DNA from: Opitutia bacterium
Lineage (GTDB): Bacteria > Verrucomicrobiota > Verrucomicrobiia > Opitutales > Opitutaceae
DNA: 39,560 bases
Direction: 5' to 3'
NCBI GenBank assembly: GCA_947453695.1
Contig: CANGHW010000038.1
Coordinates: 1 to 39,560 of the forward strand
The notes beneath the pieces are model-generated. The model ran no database searches and was not told the DNA's origin. It saw nothing but the letters and a program-made list of their open reading frames with translations. Below, in pieces: positions 20,793-29,872 of the stretch. Every line of letters begins with the position of its first letter. Position 1 is the first letter of the stretch. The translations under genes and the position numbers were made by a program.

Positions 20793-21656
20793 CTAGAAGG
20801 GAAACCGCCGAGCGAGCTCAATCAGCCCATCGCTGATTTTTCGAAGTTCTGCGTCGGGCACCCGGTCGGTGTAGAGGCAGGCCGAGAAATCGTCGCTCGT
20901 CGTTTGGCCGCTCCGGTAGGCCTCCACGTAGGCTTCGAACTCGCGGTAGGCGGCGCTGCCCGATCCGCATTTGGAGCGGATGAGCTCGAGCGCCTGATGG
21001 AGGAAAACGGAGAACGGATCTGAGGATTGGGGACTCCACCACTGGACGTCTGAGGTGACGTCGACAAAATCGCAGGCCTCCGCGCTGGTCCGTTCAAAAG
21101 CGCAGCGCTGGAAGACCACACCGGCGAAGTAACATCGCTGAAATGATACCCCGGCGAACTGGCAGTCGCGAAACAGGAGCTGCCCCCCGCCGCTGCCGAA
21201 ATCGCGATTCACGATCTGGCTATTTGAAATCAGTTTTGCCCTCAGGCCCACGACCGTGCTCTGGGAAAAGGAGCAGCGGTCGAACAGCGTCTGGTGCGGT
21301 TTGAAAGTCTTCAGGTCGACGTGATCAAAGCGGCAGTCCGTGAACGTGTTCACCGGCGCAATCATATCGCGCAAGTCACAGCGTTCGAAACTACAGTCGC
21401 TCCACCGGTCCCTGGCGCCCCATCCGTGTCCCTCACTCGTGAGGTCGCAAAAGCGGCAGCGCGCAAACTCACACTCCACAAAATTGAGGCCCAGTTTGGC
21501 TGTGGCGAAGGTGAAGGCCGAGAATTGGATTCCACGCACGACTTCCGGCCGGGCGAGTTCCTGTGCGTCGGCCAAAACGGCCGGGCCTTCTGTAGGAAGC
21601 CGCAGGATTTGCCGGGCCGAACCTTTGGCGCGGAGGAGATGATCGAGGAGGCGCAC
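20793..21656 (-). CDS. Pentapeptide-repeat protein
   Basis: The 287-residue protein has its middle half (about residues 50-205) built of degenerate pentapeptide repeats with central Phe or Leu and many Cys: FVECEFARCRF, WSDCSFERCDLRDM, FTDCRFDHVDL, LFDRCSFSQ, FRDCQFAGVSFQRCYFAGV and FQRCAFERTSAEACDF. Such repeats fold as a right-handed quadrilateral beta-helix. A helical C-terminus (FSVFLHQALELIRSKCGSGS and following) is added. No signal peptide is visible, so it is probably cytoplasmic. Some family members protect gyrase, but nothing points to that here. It diverges from a phosphoesterase across 128 bp and is followed by repeat copy A. Confidence 0.82.
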   Translation of the reverse strand: MRLLDHLLRAKGSARQILRLPTEGPAVLADAQELARPEVVRGIQFSAFTFATAKLGLNFVECEFARCRFCDLTSEGHGWGARDRWSDCSFERCDLRDMIAPVNTFTDCRFDHVDLKTFKPHQTLFDRCSFSQSTVVGLRAKLISNSQIVNRDFGSGGGQLLFRDCQFAGVSFQRCYFAGVVFQRCAFERTSAEACDFVDVTSDVQWWSPQSSDPFSVFLHQALELIRSKCGSGSAAYREFEAYVEAYRSGQTTSDDFSACLYTDRVPDAELRKISDGLIELARRFPF

Positions 21657-22752: not shown

Positions 22753-23379
22753 CTACGCGGCGAGGGCGTGGCAGGCGCTGCTGAGGCGGGCGTCGGTGAG
22801 GACGGGCTCGCGGGACAGGCGCCAAATCGCCTCGGGTTCCCAGAGGGTGCTGCGCAGGGGCTCGAGGAGTTTGCGCGGGAGATCGGGGGCGGCCACGTGG
22901 CGCAGGATCGAGAGCGTCTGCCGCGAGCCCGGCAGGCCCAGCCACTGGAGGACGCCGTAGATGCCCTGGCGCTCGTGCACCGCGGTGAGGGCGGCCCAGT
23001 GCGGGGTGCCGTCGGCGACGAGATTGGCATGTGCGGCGACGAAGGGCGTGAGCGCGGGCGTCTCGGCAAGATCGGCGAGGAGGGTGGGACAACGCGCCAC
23101 GACAAAGAGCGCCGGCATGCGGGCGAGGTTGAACTGCGCGAGGAAGGCCCGCACCTCGGCCGGCGTGAAGTCGAGGTAGGCGGCCCAGTCGCGGGCGCTC
23201 AAGGTTTGGGCCGCGGAGGCGAGGGCGGACTCAGACGGCTCGGCGGGGATCCACTCGTCGCCGAAGAGGCGCTCGAAGCGGGTTTCCGGCCAGGCTGTGA
23301 CCCGCCAGGGCACACCAGCGTGGGACCAGGCGAGGGCGAGAGGAACGAGGCATTTTTGGGATGGATTTTTGTGTTTCAC
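22753..23379 (-). CDS. Unrecognised protein, divergent to the WYL regulator
   Basis: The 208-residue protein starts at GTG (23379), 14 nt downstream of the 30-bp shared box. No signal peptide, membrane helix or known motif is visible. It is Leu/Ala/Pro-rich and mostly helical in appearance (LARMPALFVVARCPTLLADL, WLGLPGSRQTLSILRHVAAP, LLEPLRSTLWEPEAIWRL). The repeated W and LxxL pattern suggests helical solenoid packing, but I cannot assign a family. It shares its promoter region with the WYL regulator and its operator with the distant operon at 26255, so it probably belongs to the same functional module. Terminated by repeat copy B. Confidence 0.75.
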   Translation of the reverse strand: MKHKNPSQKCLVPLALAWSHAGVPWRVTAWPETRFERLFGDEWIPAEPSESALASAAQTLSARDWAAYLDFTPAEVRAFLAQFNLARMPALFVVARCPTLLADLAETPALTPFVAAHANLVADGTPHWAALTAVHERQGIYGVLQWLGLPGSRQTLSILRHVAAPDLPRKLLEPLRSTLWEPEAIWRLSREPVLTDARLSSACHALAA

Positions 23380-23393
23380 GGGCCCAATCCTAA

Positions 23394-23423
23394 CAGAGAG
23401 GGTGGGTCAAAAACGGTCCCACC
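23394..23423. promoter_or_regulatory. 30-bp WYL-locus box, copy 1 (putative operator)
   Basis: Bases 23401-23423 form an imperfect palindrome (GGTGGG-n-C ... G-n-CCCACC). On the minus strand the box continues with CTCTCTG (23400-23394). All 30 bp are identical to 26211-26240 in opposite orientation. On the minus strand the box ends 14 nt before the GTG of the 208-residue gene. It also lies 25 bp before the WYL gene start, so it could autoregulate. Confidence 0.75.
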
Positions 23424-23438
23424 CCAAAAATAGTTGAA

Positions 23439-23468
23439 ATTATTTTTTATGGATAAACGACGTGCCAA
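23439..23468 (-). promoter_or_regulatory. Candidate sigma-70 promoter of the divergent unknown gene
   Basis: On the minus strand TTGGCA (23468-23463), 18 bp, AATAAT (23444-23439). Each hexamer matches consensus at five of six positions. The predicted transcript start lies just before the palindrome, which would place a bound repressor across early transcription. The -35 overlaps the first codons of the WYL gene. Confidence 0.5.
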
Positions 23469-24432
23469 TCGGGCCCCTTTGGAGCGGATGTTGCACATCC
23501 ACGAAGAGCTAAAACGCGGTGCGCCGATCAACTGCACTAGCCTCAGCCAAACGCTGGAAGTGGCGCGCAAGACCCTCGTGCGCGACCTGAACTATATGCG
23601 GGATCGCCTGGGGCTGCCGGTGGAATTTGACCCAGTCCGCAACACCTACCACTACACGGAGCCGGTGGATGCTTTCCCCACGGTAAAAGTGAGTGAAGGT
23701 GAAGTATTTGCCCTTCTCGTGGCGCGCAAGGCGCTCGAGCAGTATCGGGGCACGCCCTTCCACGGGCAGCTGGCGGCTTCATTTGAGAAGCTCACGGCAG
23801 GCCTGAAGCAGAGTGTGACCTTCGCCCCGACGGATGAGCTCAAGTCCGTGTCGTTTAAGAGCATCGGGGTGGGCAAGTCCGATGCGGAGGTGTTTTCCTC
23901 GCTCAATCGCGGGGTGATGCGGGAGCTGGAGGTGTCGTTTGACTATCGCAAGCCGGGTGAGGCGAAGGCGATGCGGCGTTCCGTGCAGCCCTACCATCTC
24001 TCGTATCGGCAAAACATGTGGTATCTCGTGGCGTTTGATTTAGCGCGCAATGATCTGCGCACCTTTGCCGTGCCGCGCATCGCGGACGTCATTGTGACGG
24101 ACCGGGGATTTAAGCGTCCGCCAGATTTTTCGCCGGAGAAGTTCTTTGCCAAGGCGCTCGGGGTGTTCGGCGGCGGCGGAAATTTTAATATCGTGGTGCG
24201 GTTTCGCCCCGGTGCCGCGGCCGATCGCGTCTTTGAGCGGGAGTGGCATGAGACTCAGGACCTGCGTCGCCTGCCGGACGGATCGGCCCAACTTACCATG
24301 CGCCTGGGCGCGCTGGAGGAGATCGAGCGCTGGGTGATGGAGTGGGGCCCCGATGCCGAGGTCGTGGAACCACCGGAGCTGCGGGCCCGCCTCAAAAAGA
24401 CGGCGGAAGCTCTCTTGAAGCTCTATTCCTGA
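23449..24432 (+). CDS. WYL-domain transcriptional regulator
   Basis: The 327-residue protein has an N-terminal winged HTH (RMLHIHEELKRGAPINCTSL, then LEVARKTLVRDLNYMRDRLG), a middle WYL domain (about 140-235) with RRSVQPYHLSYRQNMWYLVA and LRTFAVPRIADV, and a C-terminal WCX-like extension ending LKKTAEALLKLYS. The layout and length fit BrxR/CapW-type and related WYL regulators, which often repress phage-defence operons and may sense a nucleic acid ligand. ATG 23449 is chosen over TTG 23434. No clear ribosome site exists in the AT-rich leader (TTGAAATTATTTTTT). The palindrome copies at 23401 and 26211 are its likely targets. Confidence 0.88.
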   Translation: MDKRRANRAPLERMLHIHEELKRGAPINCTSLSQTLEVARKTLVRDLNYMRDRLGLPVEFDPVRNTYHYTEPVDAFPTVKVSEGEVFALLVARKALEQYRGTPFHGQLAASFEKLTAGLKQSVTFAPTDELKSVSFKSIGVGKSDAEVFSSLNRGVMRELEVSFDYRKPGEAKAMRRSVQPYHLSYRQNMWYLVAFDLARNDLRTFAVPRIADVIVTDRGFKRPPDFSPEKFFAKALGVFGGGGNFNIVVRFRPGAAADRVFEREWHETQDLRRLPDGSAQLTMRLGALEEIERWVMEWGPDAEVVEPPELRARLKKTAEALLKLYS

Positions 24433-24526
24433 GGCCGAAACCCGCTTCCCGCCGGCGGATAACGGTCCGCAGCGTGGGCGGGACGGTGAGGCTGCCTGCC
24501 TGAAGTAGGGTTAATGCAAGTCGGAT

Positions 24527-24883
24527 GCGAATTGGCGCAGCCTGAATGGGAATTGGCGGATGCTGGACGGGAATTGGTGCACGCTGAATGAGAAATGGCG
24601 GCGGCTGGACGGAAAATGGCGGCGGCTGAATGAGAATTGGCGCACGCTGGACGGAAAATGGCAGAGGCTGGACGGGAAATGGCGGGCGCTGAACGGGAAT
24701 TGGCGCAGGCTGGACGAGAAATGGCGGACGCTGGACGGGAATTGTCACGGGCTGGACGGGAAGTGGCGGCGGCTGAACGGGAATTGTCGCGCGCTGGACA
24801 GGAAATGGCGGCGGCTGAATGGAAATTGGCGGAGGCTGGACGGGAAGTGGCGGACGCTGGAAGGATTCTGGCGGAGGCCGGTC
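24527..24883. repeat. Tandem repeat, 17 units of 21 bp
   Basis: Seventeen consecutive 21-bp units without spacers, consensus near GGGAAATGGCGGAGGCTGGAC. Variation concentrates at units' positions 5-6, 11-14 and 18-21. Since 21 is a multiple of three, several frames stay open. One reads heptads such as REMAAAERELAQAG (coiled-coil like) but is cut by TGA between units 3 and 4 and between 5 and 6. Another reads LDGKWRR-type heptads. No ribosome binding site is evident, so I list it as a minisatellite rather than a gene. Confidence 0.9.
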
Positions 24884-25030
24884 CGGTCCCCGCGAGGCCG
24901 GGTGGAGTGCGGTGCAACGCCGGAGCCGCCACGAAGGGCCCGGAAGCGACGATGACAACCGGTGGAATCAGCGTGGACTTGCCTTGAGGCGGGGCATGGG
25001 TGGCCTTGCGGCGAGTTTCCCCATCTCCCC

Positions 25031-25861
25031 ATGGTCATCGGCATCCATTTTACCCCGATCGGTCGAACCTATGAAGCGATCCTGCTCGATAACGGCGAGG
25101 TGGACGATTGGAAGCTCACGGAAGACCCGCAGGTAATGGCAAATTGGTGCCGAGACTCGGGCGCGACCGTCGTGGCGGTCGATGGTCCGGCGCAGTGGCG
25201 CGAGGAGGGCGGGCCGTTGCGACGGGCGGACCAGGAACTGCTTGATGCCGGGTTGACGCACCTCTCTACGCCAACGGAGGAGGAGGTGAATCTGTTGCCC
25301 TTTTCGAATCGGATGCGCGCCATGCCGCCGCTCTACGCTGCGTTGAAGCGCACGTTTGCCGCCTACACGGGGAAGATGGTGCGGAGGCGGTTTATGGTGG
25401 AGACGCGGTCGCATCCGGCGATCGGCATCCTCAATGGATTTCCGCTCGAAACGACGGGCGATTACCGCATCCGGCACGAGATCCTCGCCCGGGCGAAAAT
25501 CCCCGTGCGAGCAGTGGGGCCGTGCATGGACGCGATCTGGGCTGCGCTGTCGGCGGAAGCGCTGGTGCAACGGCGGGCCACGGTGGTGGGCGATCGCGCG
25601 GGTGGTTTCGTAGTGCTACCGGCCCTACCGCTGCCGGGCAAGCCGTTGCGCGACAGCGATCCGCGGCCGAAACGGGGGTGGCCGTGCTCGTGTTGCTACG
25701 GCAACCTTTGGGTCTGCGAGGACCATCCGGACATGCCGTTTCGCATTAGCTGTCCGCGCTGCGGTGCGGGAGTCGGGATGCAATGTCACTGCAATCCCTT
25801 CGGACAATTGCAGCCGGACATGGTCATCGTTCCGATCGGGAACCGCCATTCGCGAAATTGA
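25031..25861 (+). CDS. DUF429-like protein with C-terminal zinc ribbon
   Basis: The 276-residue protein has an RNase H-like fold pattern of DUF429: VIGIHFTPIGRTYEAILLDN, VVAVDGPAQWREEGGPLRRA, FSNRMRAMPPLYAALKRTFA and VETRSHPAIGILNGFPLETT. The first strand usually ends in Asp (GIDFT); here it is His (GIHFT), so one expected metal ligand is changed. Residues about 215-260 add a Cys-rich module (PCSCCYGNLWVCEDHPDMPF, then CPRCGAGVGMQCHCNP) that looks like one or two zinc ribbons. Start set at the first RNase H strand. It lies between the two operator copies, downstream of the WYL gene and tandem repeat. Nuclease activity is only a possibility. Confidence 0.72.
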   Translation: MVIGIHFTPIGRTYEAILLDNGEVDDWKLTEDPQVMANWCRDSGATVVAVDGPAQWREEGGPLRRADQELLDAGLTHLSTPTEEEVNLLPFSNRMRAMPPLYAALKRTFAAYTGKMVRRRFMVETRSHPAIGILNGFPLETTGDYRIRHEILARAKIPVRAVGPCMDAIWAALSAEALVQRRATVVGDRAGGFVVLPALPLPGKPLRDSDPRPKRGWPCSCCYGNLWVCEDHPDMPFRISCPRCGAGVGMQCHCNPFGQLQPDMVIVPIGNRHSRN

Positions 25862-26140
25862 GCGTGGGGTGGGGGACGACGGCGCGCGGACGAGCCGCAG
25901 TGTGGCGCGGACGGAGGGCCACGCCGGGGCGGAGCTGAAATGACTTCCCTTGGAGAGGCGCGGAAACTCGTTGGGGGGAAGCCGGGCGACGCCCCGGGCG
26001 GCCTGGGCCAAGGGAAAACGCGGCAAAAGGGCTGAAAAGGAGAGTTTGGGCGGCCCGGGAGCCGACTTGGGGCGAAAATGGGGACGATTTTTTGCGAAAA
26101 AAGAGTGGGACATCGTGGTTTTTCCCGAATTTTCCGGTGC
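25862..26140. other. Gene-free stretch upstream of the WYL-box operon
   Basis: No supported ORF. The first two thirds are GC-rich and unremarkable. From about 26100 the sequence becomes AT-rich and leads into the promoter and operator of the operon at 26255. Confidence 0.6.
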
Positions 26141-26169
26141 TTGATAGGTGTTAAGTAGCTCAAAATAAT
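26141..26169 (+). promoter_or_regulatory. Candidate sigma-70 promoter of the five-gene unknown operon
   Basis: TTGATA (26141-26146), 17-bp spacer, AATAAT (26164-26169). Both hexamers match consensus at five of six. It lies in one of the few AT-rich tracts of the window, and the palindromic box starts 41 bp after the -10, suiting repression by road-block or a 5' leader element. Confidence 0.6.
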
Positions 26170-26210
26170 GATTTTAGGATGCTGATGAGATTTTTGATGC
26201 GTAGTATTAC

Positions 26211-26240
26211 GGTGGGACCGTTTTTGACCCACCCTCTCTG
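26211..26240. promoter_or_regulatory. 30-bp WYL-locus box, copy 2 (putative operator)
   Basis: Exact inverted copy of 23394-23423. The palindromic part is 26211-26233, followed by CTCTCTG. It ends 14 nt before the ATG at 26255, the same distance as copy 1 to its gene. It links the five-gene operon to the WYL regulator. Confidence 0.78.
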
Positions 26241-26254
26241 ATATTCTCTGGGGC

Positions 26255-26455
26255 ATGAACTCTTCATCCTCTCGCAAAACCTACGGCACGCTCCCTCTCA
26301 CTCCCGCGATCATCGGCGGCATCCAACTCGAGTTTGCCATGATCGAAGCGCCTGCGCCCCGCGTGCGTTTCCTTAATTTTCCCTGCGTCGATGTGGCGCC
26401 CACCGCGGCTGAACTCCGCCGGACCCGCCGCCAGAAACGCGATATCGCCGCCTGA
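26255..26455 (+). CDS. Small unrecognised protein, first gene of the WYL-box operon
   Basis: The 66-residue protein begins MNSSSSRKTYGTLPLTPAII and ends with a basic helix (AAELRRTRRQKRDIAA). No known motif. Support comes from position: it starts 14 nt after the shared 30-bp box and behind a good promoter. CTGGGG precedes the ATG. The basic tail could contact nucleic acid. About 225 bp without a clear ORF or hairpin separate it from the next gene. Confidence 0.6.
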   Translation: MNSSSSRKTYGTLPLTPAIIGGIQLEFAMIEAPAPRVRFLNFPCVDVAPTAAELRRTRRQKRDIAA

Positions 26456-26680
26456 GGGCGCCGGAGGCGCCCAGGGGCGGGAAGATGGAAGATGGGAGAT
26501 AGGAGATGGAGGAAGGCCTCTAACCCGAAGCCCGAGATCCCAACGCCCAGCGCCCAGACCCAAGACCCTAGATCCACGACCTGAGCTCTCCCCTCGCCCC
26601 CTCACCCCGAATCCTTTTCCGAACCCTTTGGCCTATGTCGGGCCATTATTAACAAACACAAAAAACGAAAGATAGATGCC

Positions 26681-27448
26681 ATGAACACCCGTCAGAAGAA
26701 CAAAGTGCAAAGTCACAAAACGCGGATTCATTTTTTGAAGACCGCGCCGGAAATTGCCCAGATCAAGGGGCTGCCGGCCAAGTTGGAGGCCTATGGTCGG
26801 AAGATCAGTCGGCTGGATACGCTCACCGTGATCCAAAACGAGCGGACCCGCACGGCGGCGGCGCGCGATGCAAGCCACGATGAAATGCGAGAGACGTCGC
26901 TGATGATCTCGGGCGTGGCGTTGAGCTATGCGGACGAGAAAGAGGTGCCGGGTCTCGCCGAGCAGGTGAAGTTGAGCCCCAATGACTTCGCCCAAGCACG
27001 GCTGGATGATCGCGTGCAGTTGGCGCAACAACTCCATGCGGCGGTGCTGCCGCTGGTGCCGGAGCTGGTGGAGTATGGGATCACCGACGAATCGATGGAT
27101 GATTTCCGCGCGACGATTGATCGGGCGGCTGCGGCGTTGCCCCTCACGCGCGCCGCCGAGGCCGATCGCCGGGTGGCGACGCGCGAGATCAACGTCGCGA
27201 TTCGCGGACTCGATGAGTTGGAGAAGAACCAGATCCTGCCCTTGCTGCTGCCGCTGAAGAAGAGCCATCCGGAAGTCTACCAACGCTACCTGGTCTGCCG
27301 CGAAGTGCTTGATCGTCCGGGCGCGCGGGCCGGGGGCGACAAGAAGGACGAGGCTCCGGTCGGCGAGGCGACGGAGGGTGCATCCACTGCGCCCGCCGTG
27401 GTCGCGAAGACCACGCCCGGAGCAGAGAGCCCGGCGAAGGCCGCTTAG
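26681..27448 (+). CDS. Unrecognised helical protein
   Basis: The 255-residue protein is nearly all predicted helix in residues 1-205 (LKTAPEIAQIKGLPAKLEAY, LAEQVKLSPNDFAQARLDDR, LDELEKNQILPLLLPLKKSH), with many charged residues and no signal peptide or membrane segment. The last 45 residues are low-complexity Ala/Pro/Lys/Glu and probably disordered. I recognise no family. The helix content and lack of catalytic motifs suggest a structural or adaptor protein. It is second in the WYL-box operon. Confidence 0.75.
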   Translation: MNTRQKNKVQSHKTRIHFLKTAPEIAQIKGLPAKLEAYGRKISRLDTLTVIQNERTRTAAARDASHDEMRETSLMISGVALSYADEKEVPGLAEQVKLSPNDFAQARLDDRVQLAQQLHAAVLPLVPELVEYGITDESMDDFRATIDRAAAALPLTRAAEADRRVATREINVAIRGLDELEKNQILPLLLPLKKSHPEVYQRYLVCREVLDRPGARAGGDKKDEAPVGEATEGASTAPAVVAKTTPGAESPAKAA

Positions 27449-27535
27449 TGAAAAAACCGCGGGGCCGGTCGAGTGAACGGCGCCGCTAAGGTCAGGTGGC
27501 CCTGACTGGTAAGGTCAGGGCGATAGCTGGATCGG

Positions 27536-27565
27536 GCGCCCCCGCCGCACGGGCGGCGGGGGCGC
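27536..27565. repeat. 13-bp perfect inverted repeat between operon genes
   Basis: GCGCCCCCGCCGC and its complement are separated by ACGG, giving a very stable hairpin. No T-run follows, so it is not a standard terminator. A smaller inverted pair CCCTGAC/GTCAGGG (27500-27520) precedes it. The hairpin may set relative expression of the flanking genes or protect mRNA ends. The whole gap 27449-27699 holds no supported gene. Confidence 0.7.
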
Positions 27566-27699
27566 TGCGATCAGAAGAGAACGAACGCAGGTGGGTCGTG
27601 GACCCCGCGCGACATGACGCGCCCAAGCAAGATAGACGGCGAGGCCGGAGCGATGAACGCCCGGGCGTCCGTGAACCGAGACCAGGAATTTTTGCCCCT

Positions 27700-28773
27700 A
27701 TGAACACTGATTTGATCCTCGAGAGTGAAGCCCCGCGCGTGATGCGGAAGGCTCGGCGCAGGCTGGCCCGGACGCGGCGGTCGGACGGGCGCGCGGGCAC
27801 CATGGCGTCGCGGACGAAGAAGTTTGTCTACAAGCGCGCGACCTTTGCCGTGGAGCCGGAGCCGCGCTCGCTCGAGGACTTGCTCAACGAAGCCTGGCGG
27901 GCGACGGCGGAAGAGAGCGGTCGCCGCCGGCAGATCACGGAAGTGGAGTCGGGGGCCTGTGTGATCACGCGGTGCCGCACGCAGGCGCGGGGCATGACGT
28001 TTTTCGAGCTGCTCACCTTTACGCCGGGCATGAAGGCGCTGGCGGCGAAGGTGGATTTCACGCGGCCGACCTTCGACGTGGAGGAACATGATTTGAAGAA
28101 TGCGGCGGGGCTGCGGCTGGAGCTGATCCAGACCATCGCGTTTGTGGCGGTGGCGGGAAATCACGTGGTGTTGCTGCCCTCGGCGGAGCTGCGGAGTGCG
28201 GAGATCGAGGCGCATTTGAACTGGCTCCTCGGTCCGGCGACGCAGACGCTCGCGGCGCCGCAGGCGGTGCGGCTCTCGAACCGGATCTCGCCGGCCAAGG
28301 AGGAGGAAGTGAAAAGCGCCACGCAGATCCAGTTTGCCACCGACCTCACGCTCGCGGCGACCGAGGGGCCGGGCGGGGAGAGCCGGATCCGACCGCAGGG
28401 ACTGAATTGGACGGGACTGCGGGCACTGTTGAACGGGCTCGGGCCGCGGATGGCGGACGTGACGACGGAACTCGAACTCGCCGGGCTGACCGAGCCCACG
28501 CCGGTGGGAATCAATATCGCGCTCAGCTGGCCGCAACCCCGGCGGGGGCAGCGCCATGAAGTGCTGGACCGCATCGCGACCGGGCTGCGCCACCTGGACA
28601 CGGAAATCGATTTCAAGATCAAGACTCTGCACGGCTGGATCACGAAACAGGATCTGCTGCTTGAGCGGATGAAGACGGTGCGCTGCCGGGACGAGCGACC
28701 GGTGCGCGAGCATCTCTGGGAGGCGATCAGCGCATGGCTCGTGAGCCTGCAGGAAGCCGGGGAGATCGCGTGA
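27700..28773 (+). CDS. Unrecognised protein, central gene of the WYL-box operon
   Basis: The 357-residue protein starts MNTDLILESEAPRVMRKARR, a basic N-terminal tail (RKARRRLARTRRSDGR), followed by a globular region. Segments such as ITEVESGACVITRCRTQARG, FVAVAGNHVVLLPSAELRSA and EIEAHLNWLL suggest mixed alpha/beta. The C-terminus ends in HLWEAISAWLVSLQEAG. No membrane helix, no Walker or nuclease motif. The ATG at 27700 is preferred because in-frame sequence back to 27496 covers the hairpin region and looks non-coding. It is the largest protein of the operon and the best candidate effector, but I cannot assign a function. Confidence 0.75.
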   Translation: MNTDLILESEAPRVMRKARRRLARTRRSDGRAGTMASRTKKFVYKRATFAVEPEPRSLEDLLNEAWRATAEESGRRRQITEVESGACVITRCRTQARGMTFFELLTFTPGMKALAAKVDFTRPTFDVEEHDLKNAAGLRLELIQTIAFVAVAGNHVVLLPSAELRSAEIEAHLNWLLGPATQTLAAPQAVRLSNRISPAKEEEVKSATQIQFATDLTLAATEGPGGESRIRPQGLNWTGLRALLNGLGPRMADVTTELELAGLTEPTPVGINIALSWPQPRRGQRHEVLDRIATGLRHLDTEIDFKIKTLHGWITKQDLLLERMKTVRCRDERPVREHLWEAISAWLVSLQEAGEIA

Positions 28774-28829
28774 GCGCCAGCGGACGGCGCACGAAGTTTT
28801 AACCACCAAAACCAAATAACCTAAAATCC

Positions 28830-29351
28830 ATGATAACGAATATCCAGGACGAGGCCGGAGCCGAAGTGAAGTCGATCAACCCCACCGCGCCCGCACCGGG
28901 CGACAGTGAGGGACCGGCGGCAAATCGGGCGGGCGACGAGCTGAGCGAGCGAAGGGCCGGCGGAGCCGAACGGCAGTATCCATCGCGGTGCTACACCCCG
29001 GAGCGCGAGCCGGAAAGGAACGGTGTCAGCAGTAAATTCGGGGCCTTTCTGCGGTGGCGCCAGCGTCAGCGCACGGGGCACGGCGGCACGCTGCGGGCCC
29101 GGGCCTATAGTGCGATTCAGGGCGAGCCGCTGAAGAAGGTCCGCCCGGAGCGGTGGATGAGTGACGAAGAGAGGGCTCGCGATGCGGCGCTCAAGCAGAG
29201 TGCGGCGGCGCTGTTTCGCCAGACGCTCTACGGCAGCCAGAGCGGGAAGTGCGACTTGGAGTCGGTGGCGCGGAGCGTGCCGGGGGAGAGCGGAACGTTT
29301 TGCGCGTTTTGCTCCTCGTCGCGGCCCTGCCGATTTCGGGGACTGCCATGA
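28830..29351 (+). CDS. Unrecognised protein, coupled to a membrane protein
   Basis: The 173-residue protein has a charged, Pro/Gly/Glu-rich first half that looks disordered, then SSKFGAFLRWRQRQRTGHGG, ERWMSDEERARDAALKQSAA and a Cys-containing end (GTFCAFCSSSRPCRF) with CxxC. Zinc binding is possible but unproven. Its stop overlaps the next start (ATGA, 29348-29351), so the two products are probably made in step. Fourth gene of the WYL-box operon. Confidence 0.62.
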   Translation: MITNIQDEAGAEVKSINPTAPAPGDSEGPAANRAGDELSERRAGGAERQYPSRCYTPEREPERNGVSSKFGAFLRWRQRQRTGHGGTLRARAYSAIQGEPLKKVRPERWMSDEERARDAALKQSAAALFRQTLYGSQSGKCDLESVARSVPGESGTFCAFCSSSRPCRFRGLP

Positions 29352-29872
29352 TCCGCGTGCTTCCCTTTGGCGTGGCGGCGGCGGCCGGGATGTGGGCGGG
29401 CGTTCTGGCGTCCGAATGGGTGAGCCTACCCCAAGTGGCGGCGCTGGCCGCCGCGATGGGCGCGCTGAACGCGGGCTACAGCGCATGGGCGGAGAAAATT
29501 GATACAAAGCTCGGGGAACTCGACCGCCTGGCCGTGGCGGAGCGGCGCGTGCAGCAGCGGTTGACGGAGCGAATCCGGGCGAGGCGGGCGCGGCTCGTGG
29601 CCAAGCGCGTGGCGGTATTTATCGCCGGCGTGCTGGCGATGGCGGCGGCGGGGATTTTTCCGCTGGCGCCCAATGAAACCCTGCAGGCCGTGAGCATCAT
29701 CGTGAGCATGAGCGGCGCGGCGGTGGGAGCGGTGGGCTGCGTGCTGTTGTTTATTGAGTCGACCGAGCTCGATGAGCGGGTGGCGGAACTGCAGCGCTAT
29801 GTGGACCGGCTGAATGCGAGCACGGCCGAGGCGGCGCGGATCAAAGCAGCGGGCCAGCGGGAACGAAGCTGA
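29348..29872 (+). CDS. Small membrane protein with coiled-coil segments
   Basis: The 174-residue protein has two N-terminal membrane stretches (VLPFGVAAAAGMWAGVLASE and VAALAAAMGALNAGYSAWA), a charged helix (LDRLAVAERRVQQRLTERIR), two further membrane helices (VAVFIAGVLAMAAAGIFPL and VSIIVSMSGAAVGAVGCVLL) and a C-terminal coiled coil (LDERVAELQRYVDRLNAST). No enzymatic motif. The ATG at 29348 is chosen for its overlap with the upstream stop. As the only membrane protein of the operon it may anchor a complex. It ends 16 bp before the convergent GNAT gene. Confidence 0.75.
   Translation: MIRVLPFGVAAAAGMWAGVLASEWVSLPQVAALAAAMGALNAGYSAWAEKIDTKLGELDRLAVAERRVQQRLTERIRARRARLVAKRVAVFIAGVLAMAAAGIFPLAPNETLQAVSIIVSMSGAAVGAVGCVLLFIESTELDERVAELQRYVDRLNASTAEAARIKAAGQRERS

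Follow-up and report, generated by a model that had tools for sequence, protein, structure and literature searches.

The window, i.e., the whole stretch of 39,560 nt that was analyzed (contig CANGHW010000038.1 of an Opitutia bacterium of the Opitutaceae), contains the gene of a WYL regulator, a divergently oriented gene for an orphan protein of 208 aa and, farther downstream, a small open reading frame (ORF) of 66 aa. Two 30-bp boxes of identical sequence and inverted relative orientation (23394-23423 and 26211-26240) precede the latter two, and these boxes and the WYL protein predicted to read them are the subject of this analysis. Each box contains a 23-bp palindrome, GGTGGG-N11-CCCACC, with pairing at 7 of 11 positions, and is located 14 nt upstream of a start codon (GTG 23379 on the minus strand, ATG 26255 on the plus strand), while box 1 is also 25 nt away from the ATG of the WYL gene (23449). 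A sequence-only reading had described this arrangement, and both the coordinates and a shuffling control agree with it: 100 shuffled versions of the window did not contain a single match to the box at up to 3 mismatches. In the following, the arrangement palindrome, 7-8 nt, TANNNT, usually 6-7 nt, start codon is called the module. The features at the locus are:

22753..23379, minus strand: divergent 208-aa gene, predicted to be leaderless; orphan family with 441 homologues
23387..23392, minus strand: predicted -10 element TAGGAT, extended by a TG two positions upstream; 8 nt past palindrome 1 and 7 nt before GTG 23379; based on sequence and the spacing histogram
23401..23423, minus strand: predicted operator palindrome 1 (23 bp), read toward the 208-aa gene: GGTGGGACCGTTTTTGACCCACC; position kept in 33 of the 34 loci with a divergent gene
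23426..23430, minus strand: A/T tract, UP-like, just upstream of palindrome 1 toward the 208-aa gene
23449..24432, plus strand: WYL regulator (HTH-WYL-WCX) with ATG start; Pfam WYL and WCX, HTH_11 below cut-off
26211..26233, plus strand: predicted operator palindrome 2 (23 bp), same as palindrome 1
26242..26247, plus strand: predicted -10 element TATTCT, extended by a TG two positions upstream; 8 nt past palindrome 2 and 7 nt before ATG 26255
26255..26455, plus strand: ORF of 66 aa (coordinates include the stop); its family of ~60-aa proteins is found behind modules in other genomes
26456..26472, plus strand: GC hairpin GGGCGCC-GGA-GGCGCCC (7 bp, 3-base loop) starting right behind the stop codon of the 66-aa ORF; possible terminator, z -3.2, no T-run

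Conservation and geometry of the palindrome

WYL genes with about 58-65% identity to that of the window are present in many genomes of the same family, and most of them have a relative of the 208-aa gene alongside in opposite orientation (mostly 48-61% identity, 40% for the most distant one). The intergenic palindromes of these relatives have ends like those in the window and a variable center; the common form is GTGGGACA-N5-TGTCCCAC, and the form in the window is GTGGGACCGTTTTTGACCCAC. The conservation was quantified with the 47 best-scoring loci chosen by WYL protein similarity only, including the window (L032) and excluding the fragment L059. The divergent gene is present at 34 loci, and all of these but L253 have the palindrome with at least 14 of 18 positions, compared to 2 of the 13 loci without a divergent gene. 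The equal geometry at two unrelated genes had been taken as a sign of selection in the sequence-only reading, and the retention of the palindrome between the WYL gene and the 208-aa gene bears this out.

The region 0-27 nt past 35 palindromes (at least 14/18) was scanned for TANNNT, which had not been a criterion for their selection. The hexamer is present at offset 8 in 27 cases, at offset 7 in seven cases, and at no other offset in this range; the remaining locus, L243, has CAGAAT. The start codon of the divergent gene mostly follows 6-7 nt after TANNNT, and therefore leaderless transcripts are predicted. The equal distance of 14 nt is thus explained by the succession of palindrome, 8 nt, -10 element, and start codon. 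It is real, but it represents the promoter layout facing the 208-aa gene and the ORF at 26255, which favors activation over a plain blocking operator.

The upstream part of the promoter was characterized with 94 distinct modules, all chosen for having TANNNT at offset 8; some of them come from the same genome or from closely related ones. No -35 element was detected across them, matches at 3/6 or better being present in 21 of 94 modules, where shuffled bases would give about 40. A G at -14 is found in 65%, and T is present in 60-65% at four adjacent positions 5' of the palindrome, while the A+T content just 5' of it is only 0.66 versus 0.60 further upstream. The CTCTCTG part of the box is weakly conserved in relatives; mainly its length (7-8 nt before TANNNT) and the G at -14 are kept. 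The predicted operator thus has a nearly fixed distance upstream of a -10 element without a good -35 element, as in the DriD/SiwR/PafBC class of WYL activators.

The whole genome (6,380,157 bases on 356 contigs) contains exactly three copies of the 23-mer and no further one at 1-3 mismatches. Copy 3 (contig C249, 5459-5481) has one change in the CTCTCTG part and lies, in the 30-bp frame, 13 nt ahead of an ATG, which opens a 67-codon reading frame of doubtful reality. The explanation that the box is functionless, either a dispersed repeat or a recent local copy, could be based on the identity of all three copies, which includes the non-conserved center, while the centers differ in most sampled multi-site genomes. 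In a sample of 150 genomes, G069 was the sole other genome noticed to have three identical 23-mers, and the identical copies could possibly stem from within-genome copying. However, there are just three copies, none of them is degenerate, all are directly in front of start codons, and the position is conserved across genera with differing centers. We therefore regard this explanation as hardly credible. A dispersed (REP-like) repeat, to be recognized by many degenerate copies mostly outside of promoters, was rejected.

Distribution of the module and the genes behind it

The 150 family genomes were searched for the palindrome, 8 nt, and TANNNT with up to 3 mismatches, and the reversed pattern served as control. 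Matches were found in 53 genomes versus 2 for the control, so the module seems to be specific enough for target prediction. With a spacer of 11 nt instead of 8, 21 genomes (control 2) were matched at 31 places, none of which had fewer than 2 mismatches, compared to 11 places with 0 or 1 mismatches for the 8-nt spacer; many of the 11-nt matches were the same palindromes, read without the -10 element or from the WYL side.

The presence of the module agrees with that of a close WYL relative (E below 1e-80) in 124 of the 150 genomes: both are found in 48, neither in 76, the module only in five (G005, G020, G021, G102, and G104), and the WYL gene only in 21 (Fisher p 5.5e-17, uncorrected for phylogeny). 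The proposal of the sequence-only reading that the boxes are operators of the WYL protein gains weight from this, as 48 of 53 genomes with the module have a close WYL relative versus 21 of 97 without it. Any WYL match is present in 52 of the 53. Distant WYL genes (30-35% identity) adjoin modules in G109 (two loci), G123, G021, and G062, and a module also lies beside a WYL gene of 33% identity on a deltaproteobacterial contig (L208).

The exact pattern was also searched in the genome_contigs collection, which covers 84,980 species by one genome each and possibly excludes the genome of the window. Of the 52 stretches found, 49 are titled Verrucomicrobia, Verrucomicrobiota, Opitutus, Opitutae, Opitutia, Opitutaceae, or Cephaloticoccus, and the other three belong to a deltaproteobacterium, a planctomycete, and Spirulina; the module-bearing named records thus are mostly Opitutaceae and other Verrucomicrobiota. 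The 208-aa gene is present in 32 of these stretches. Five of the other 20 precede the same AddB-like gene (L188, L202, L203, L206, and L215), which was assigned by Pfam in L202 only, where an AddA-like helicase is next, and by shared N-terminal letters in the other four. PriA is encoded 435 nt behind the module at L204 and Cas3 945 nt behind it at L211. Four contigs (L195, L204, L225, and L236) belong to one Amazon Verrucomicrobia metagenome-assembled genome; their module centers are A5 or T5, and L195, L225, and L236 have no clear gene behind the module.

Targets were analyzed with 36 module sites from the 150-genome search that are away from the 208-aa gene, excluding sister-genome or second copies (L084, L150-L153, L157, L161, and L163), the WYL-facing site L165, and the WYL-side site L170. 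At 17 of these sites, Pfam, PADLOC, or NCBIfam assigned the first or nearest gene behind the module to the repair, defense, or DNA-associated proteins; for six of them (L079, L088, L136, L160, L164, and L167) the distance from the module to the called start is 104-520 nt. The genes behind the module are:

Cas3: L080, L129, L162, L167, L168
AddB-like nuclease: L142 (then the start of a UvrD-type helicase), L147
RecC, then the start of a UvrD-type helicase: L164
RmuC: L166
Lhr: L169
HmaA: L088
SNF2/PLD helicase: L079
Type IIG-like methylases: L090, L160
HsdM: L136
NA37 nucleoid protein: L083
DUF5131, a PADLOC candidate: L179
Neither a repair, a defense, nor a small-protein gene: L028, L078, L085, L133, L134, L135 (FGE-sulfatase-like), L139, L141, L143, L145, L148, L149, L172, L173, L174

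DNA damage genes (recC, addB, rmuC, lhr, priA) are thus found behind modules in relatives, and none at the three sites of this genome. The small regulon expected in the sequence-only reading fits this genome with its three sites, but not the relatives, in which many targets are DNA repair or defense genes. In four genomes of one genus (L149-L152) a conserved 157-aa protein is encoded behind the module, and a WYL gene lies no more than about 1 kb away; no Pfam domain was found in it (L149 alone was run).

At four of the 36 sites (the window, L126, L154, and L180) the ORF encodes a protein of 61-66 aa of one family, which was recognized by eye via a shared YG motif and has further members at L117, L157, and L209; a database search with the 66-aa ORF of the window retrieved one relative besides itself. 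The sequence-only reading had included this ORF in an operon at 26255-29872. This is not supported, as the ORF of the small-protein family is followed by the strong hairpin and a 225-nt gap before the next gene starts at 26681, and there is no sign that the box drives 26681-29872. The regulator itself is not supported as a target in the window either: the WYL side of palindrome 1 is devoid of TANNNT at 7 or 8 nt and has only TAGTTG, with one mismatch, at 7. One relative (L165) has a module facing its own WYL gene.

The gene at 26681-27448 encodes a 255-aa protein without any family. Weak relatives (30-31% identity) lie close to WYL paralogues, both in this genome (on C3, L081) and in G036 (L057), so a link of another kind between this gene and WYL genes may exist. 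The WYL gene of the window is closely followed by an array of degenerate 21-bp units, about 15 in number, with 42/63-bp periods (24529-24861); the contig of one WYL paralogue, C264, has a 21/63-bp array and the paralogue locus on C3 several short 21-bp arrays. Between the WYL gene and box 2 a DUF429-like protein is encoded (24962-25861; E 3e-4, below cut-off), with a weak match to the PADLOC candidate defense system PDC-S44. A pentapeptide-repeat protein (20793-21656) weakly matches, far below cut-off, the anti-phage effector HalA. For the 208-aa protein neither a Pfam domain above cut-off nor a significant fold match was found (model mean pLDDT 90).

The WYL protein and its predicted role

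The WYL protein has the WYL and WCX domains above cut-off and a weak HTH_11 match, and thus the HTH-WYL-WCX architecture. A profile built from 23 WYL relatives was searched against the PDB. It matched DriD with 2e-23 and 86 bits (9cu3; other DriD entries to 9e-22), an Arthrobacter PafBC fusion with 2e-30, though over two separate stretches, each of about 50 bits, and the mycobacterial PafB/PafC chains with 1e-16 (M. smegmatis PafB-type) and 6e-15, compared to 6e-10 and 3e-8 for CapW (7tb5 among the entries) and 1e-6 for BrxR. This better match suggests that the protein is closer to the activators DriD and PafBC, which respond to single-stranded DNA (ssDNA), than to the repressors CapW and BrxR. 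Foldseek ranked DriD first (5e-18), followed by PafBC (2e-15), CapW (1e-11), and BrxR (4e-11), albeit with low TM-scores throughout, which is due to the modest quality of the WYL model (predicted TM-score, pTM, 0.42).

In PafB, mutation of R181, Y196, R204, R208, R214, and R211, singly or grouped, is described to abolish ssDNA binding (PMC11804915). Five of the six positions are kept, R181, Y196, R204, R208, and R214 corresponding to R177, Y192, R200, R204, and R210 here; the arginines are shared by all 23 sequences and Y192 by nearly all. Positions were counted from the WYL tyrosine in the alignment with the Arthrobacter protein, and the transfer of the M. smegmatis numbering to the Arthrobacter letters was inferred from matching residues and spacing.

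That the palindrome is the predicted operator of the neighboring WYL protein family is well supported by its genomic distribution. We consider it likely that the box is the palindromic half of a promoter module without -35 element beside Opitutaceae WYL genes, and that it serves as a WYL operator, probably an activating one, most likely upon sensing of ssDNA. Because the published cases of DriD and SiwR are close, the WYL dimer probably activates, and ssDNA is the likely signal by analogy. The dimer would occupy the place of the -35 element and recruit RNA polymerase to the -10 element, as published for DriD and SiwR, and the signal would be ssDNA held by the WYL domain. For the 208-aa gene and the 66-aa ORF, transcription would begin at or beside the start codon and yield leaderless transcripts. 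In this genome, the responding sites would be those of the 208-aa gene, the 66-aa ORF at 26255, and the doubtful 67-codon frame on C249; in relatives, DNA damage would lead to the WYL regulator turning on DNA repair and anti-virus genes.

Several observations speak against this explanation. PafB R211, one of two arginines that were mutated together, corresponds to A207 here, and alanine is found in 90% or more of the alignment. A second structural aligner gave 14.9 for PafBC, 14.7 for the C-domain of DriD, 13.2 for BrxR, and 13.1 for CapW, scores so close and with such high root-mean-square deviations that activators and repressors are not separated. The extended -10 element, found in 23 of the 94 modules, among them by inspection both window sites (it is absent at the C249 site), could work without -35 element or activator. 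The strict palindrome without the -10 element matched 17 of the 150 genomes and the reversed control 14, so the palindrome alone is not specific. G005 has three modules and no WYL match at E 0.001. Two WYL paralogues in this genome (54-56% identity) have no upstream palindrome with at least 13/18 positions, and with these two further paralogues present the assignment of the three sites to one of them is inferred from adjacency. At 15 of the 36 sites no repair, defense, or small-protein gene is found behind the module; part of these sites are probably chance matches, and certain 3-mismatch sites may be as well.

Some of these observations would fit a repressor of the BrxR/CapW type, with a palindrome that blocks the promoter until damage or phage infection lifts the repression. 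WYL repressors that act on inverted repeats and control defense systems are established (PMC9122601), several targets in relatives are defense genes, the extended -10 elements could serve without a -35 element, and the second aligner scores BrxR and CapW close to DriD. Yet 71 of the 94 modules lack the TG and most of these also a -35 element, so an unaided promoter is not evident. Furthermore, the operator is located 7-8 nt upstream of the -10 element, whereas the BrxR repeats are described as lying downstream of it (PMC9122601), and the sequence profile is nearer to DriD and PafBC than to CapW or BrxR. A repressor is unlikely, but it is the main rival, and the extended -10 elements at both window sites would suit it as well.

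We regard it as quite improbable that the WYL gene is a mere neighbor and that the palindrome is read by another factor, which could be a repressor of the LexA type, an alternative sigma factor, or some unrelated dimeric regulator. The targets in relatives resemble an SOS regulon (recC, addB, lhr, rmuC), and the modules of G005 would be accounted for. In 2016 Erill reportedly published a LexA motif for Verrucomicrobia, which was counted in favor of this alternative. However, the palindrome adjoins the WYL gene in nearly all loci with a divergent gene, WYL genes of only 30-35% identity are also found beside palindromes, including the deltaproteobacterial contig, and all but one of the module genomes encode some WYL relative.

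A more general proposal has about an even chance of being correct: Verrucomicrobiota would have a second, LexA-independent response to DNA damage and infection, in which an ssDNA-sensing WYL activator acts on often leaderless promoters without -35 element and with a fixed 8-nt palindrome spacing, and switches on recombination repair (RecBC, AddAB, RmuC, PriA, and Lhr) as well as defense by CRISPR Cas3, restriction-modification, and Hma, and two putative effector families. This would be an SOS-independent damage regulon of a large bacterial group, readable from sequence. Repair nucleases and CRISPR-Cas3 or restriction systems would share one ssDNA-sensing switch, which would make the coupling of immunity and damage directly testable. 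The two conserved orphan families, the 208-aa protein and the ~60-aa proteins, are likely effectors of the response.

Comparison with known WYL regulators

CapW is said to be a dimeric repressor of the HTH-WYL-WCX type that acts on inverted repeats and is linked to phage defense. BrxR is an HTH-WYL-WCX dimer and repressor with inverted repeats downstream of the -10 element and a link to phage defense (PMC9122601). The domain order and the inverted repeat are shared with both proteins, but the sequence match is weaker and the operator lies upstream of the -10 element here. The mycobacterial PafBC is a WYL activator of DNA damage genes; it works by sigma adaptation in place of the usual -35 contact (PMC11804915). 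It is a clear sequence relative of the window protein; however, PafBC is described as a heterodimer that reads a -26 motif (PMC11804915), whereas a long palindrome is found here.

SiwR of Mycobacterium smegmatis is a homodimeric WYL activator that responds to genotoxic stress, the WYL domain of which binds ssDNA; its operator is a 19-bp imperfect palindrome just upstream of the -10 element of the adjacent operon (PMC10693628). The palindrome of the module also lies just upstream of the -10 element. Unlike SiwR, whose described targets are adjacent DinB/YfiT-like genes (PMC10693628), the module has many unlinked repair and defense targets in relatives, and it differs in the length of the palindrome and in the phylum.

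DriD of Caulobacter crescentus is ssDNA-activated and activates the operon divergent from its own gene; the targets described include recJ and bapE (PMC12340889). The DriD site is a 20-bp pseudo-palindrome over the place of the -35 element, at a constant distance to the -10 element, with a poor -35 element and a G at -14 (PMC12340889). The targets of the module differ in that they include cas3, addB, recC, restriction-methylases, and the orphan 208-aa gene, and the starts look leaderless. The likeness to the described DriD promoters concerns geometry, and it comprises the palindrome at a constant distance to the -10 element, the poor -35 element, the G at -14, and a divergent neighbor behind the promoter.

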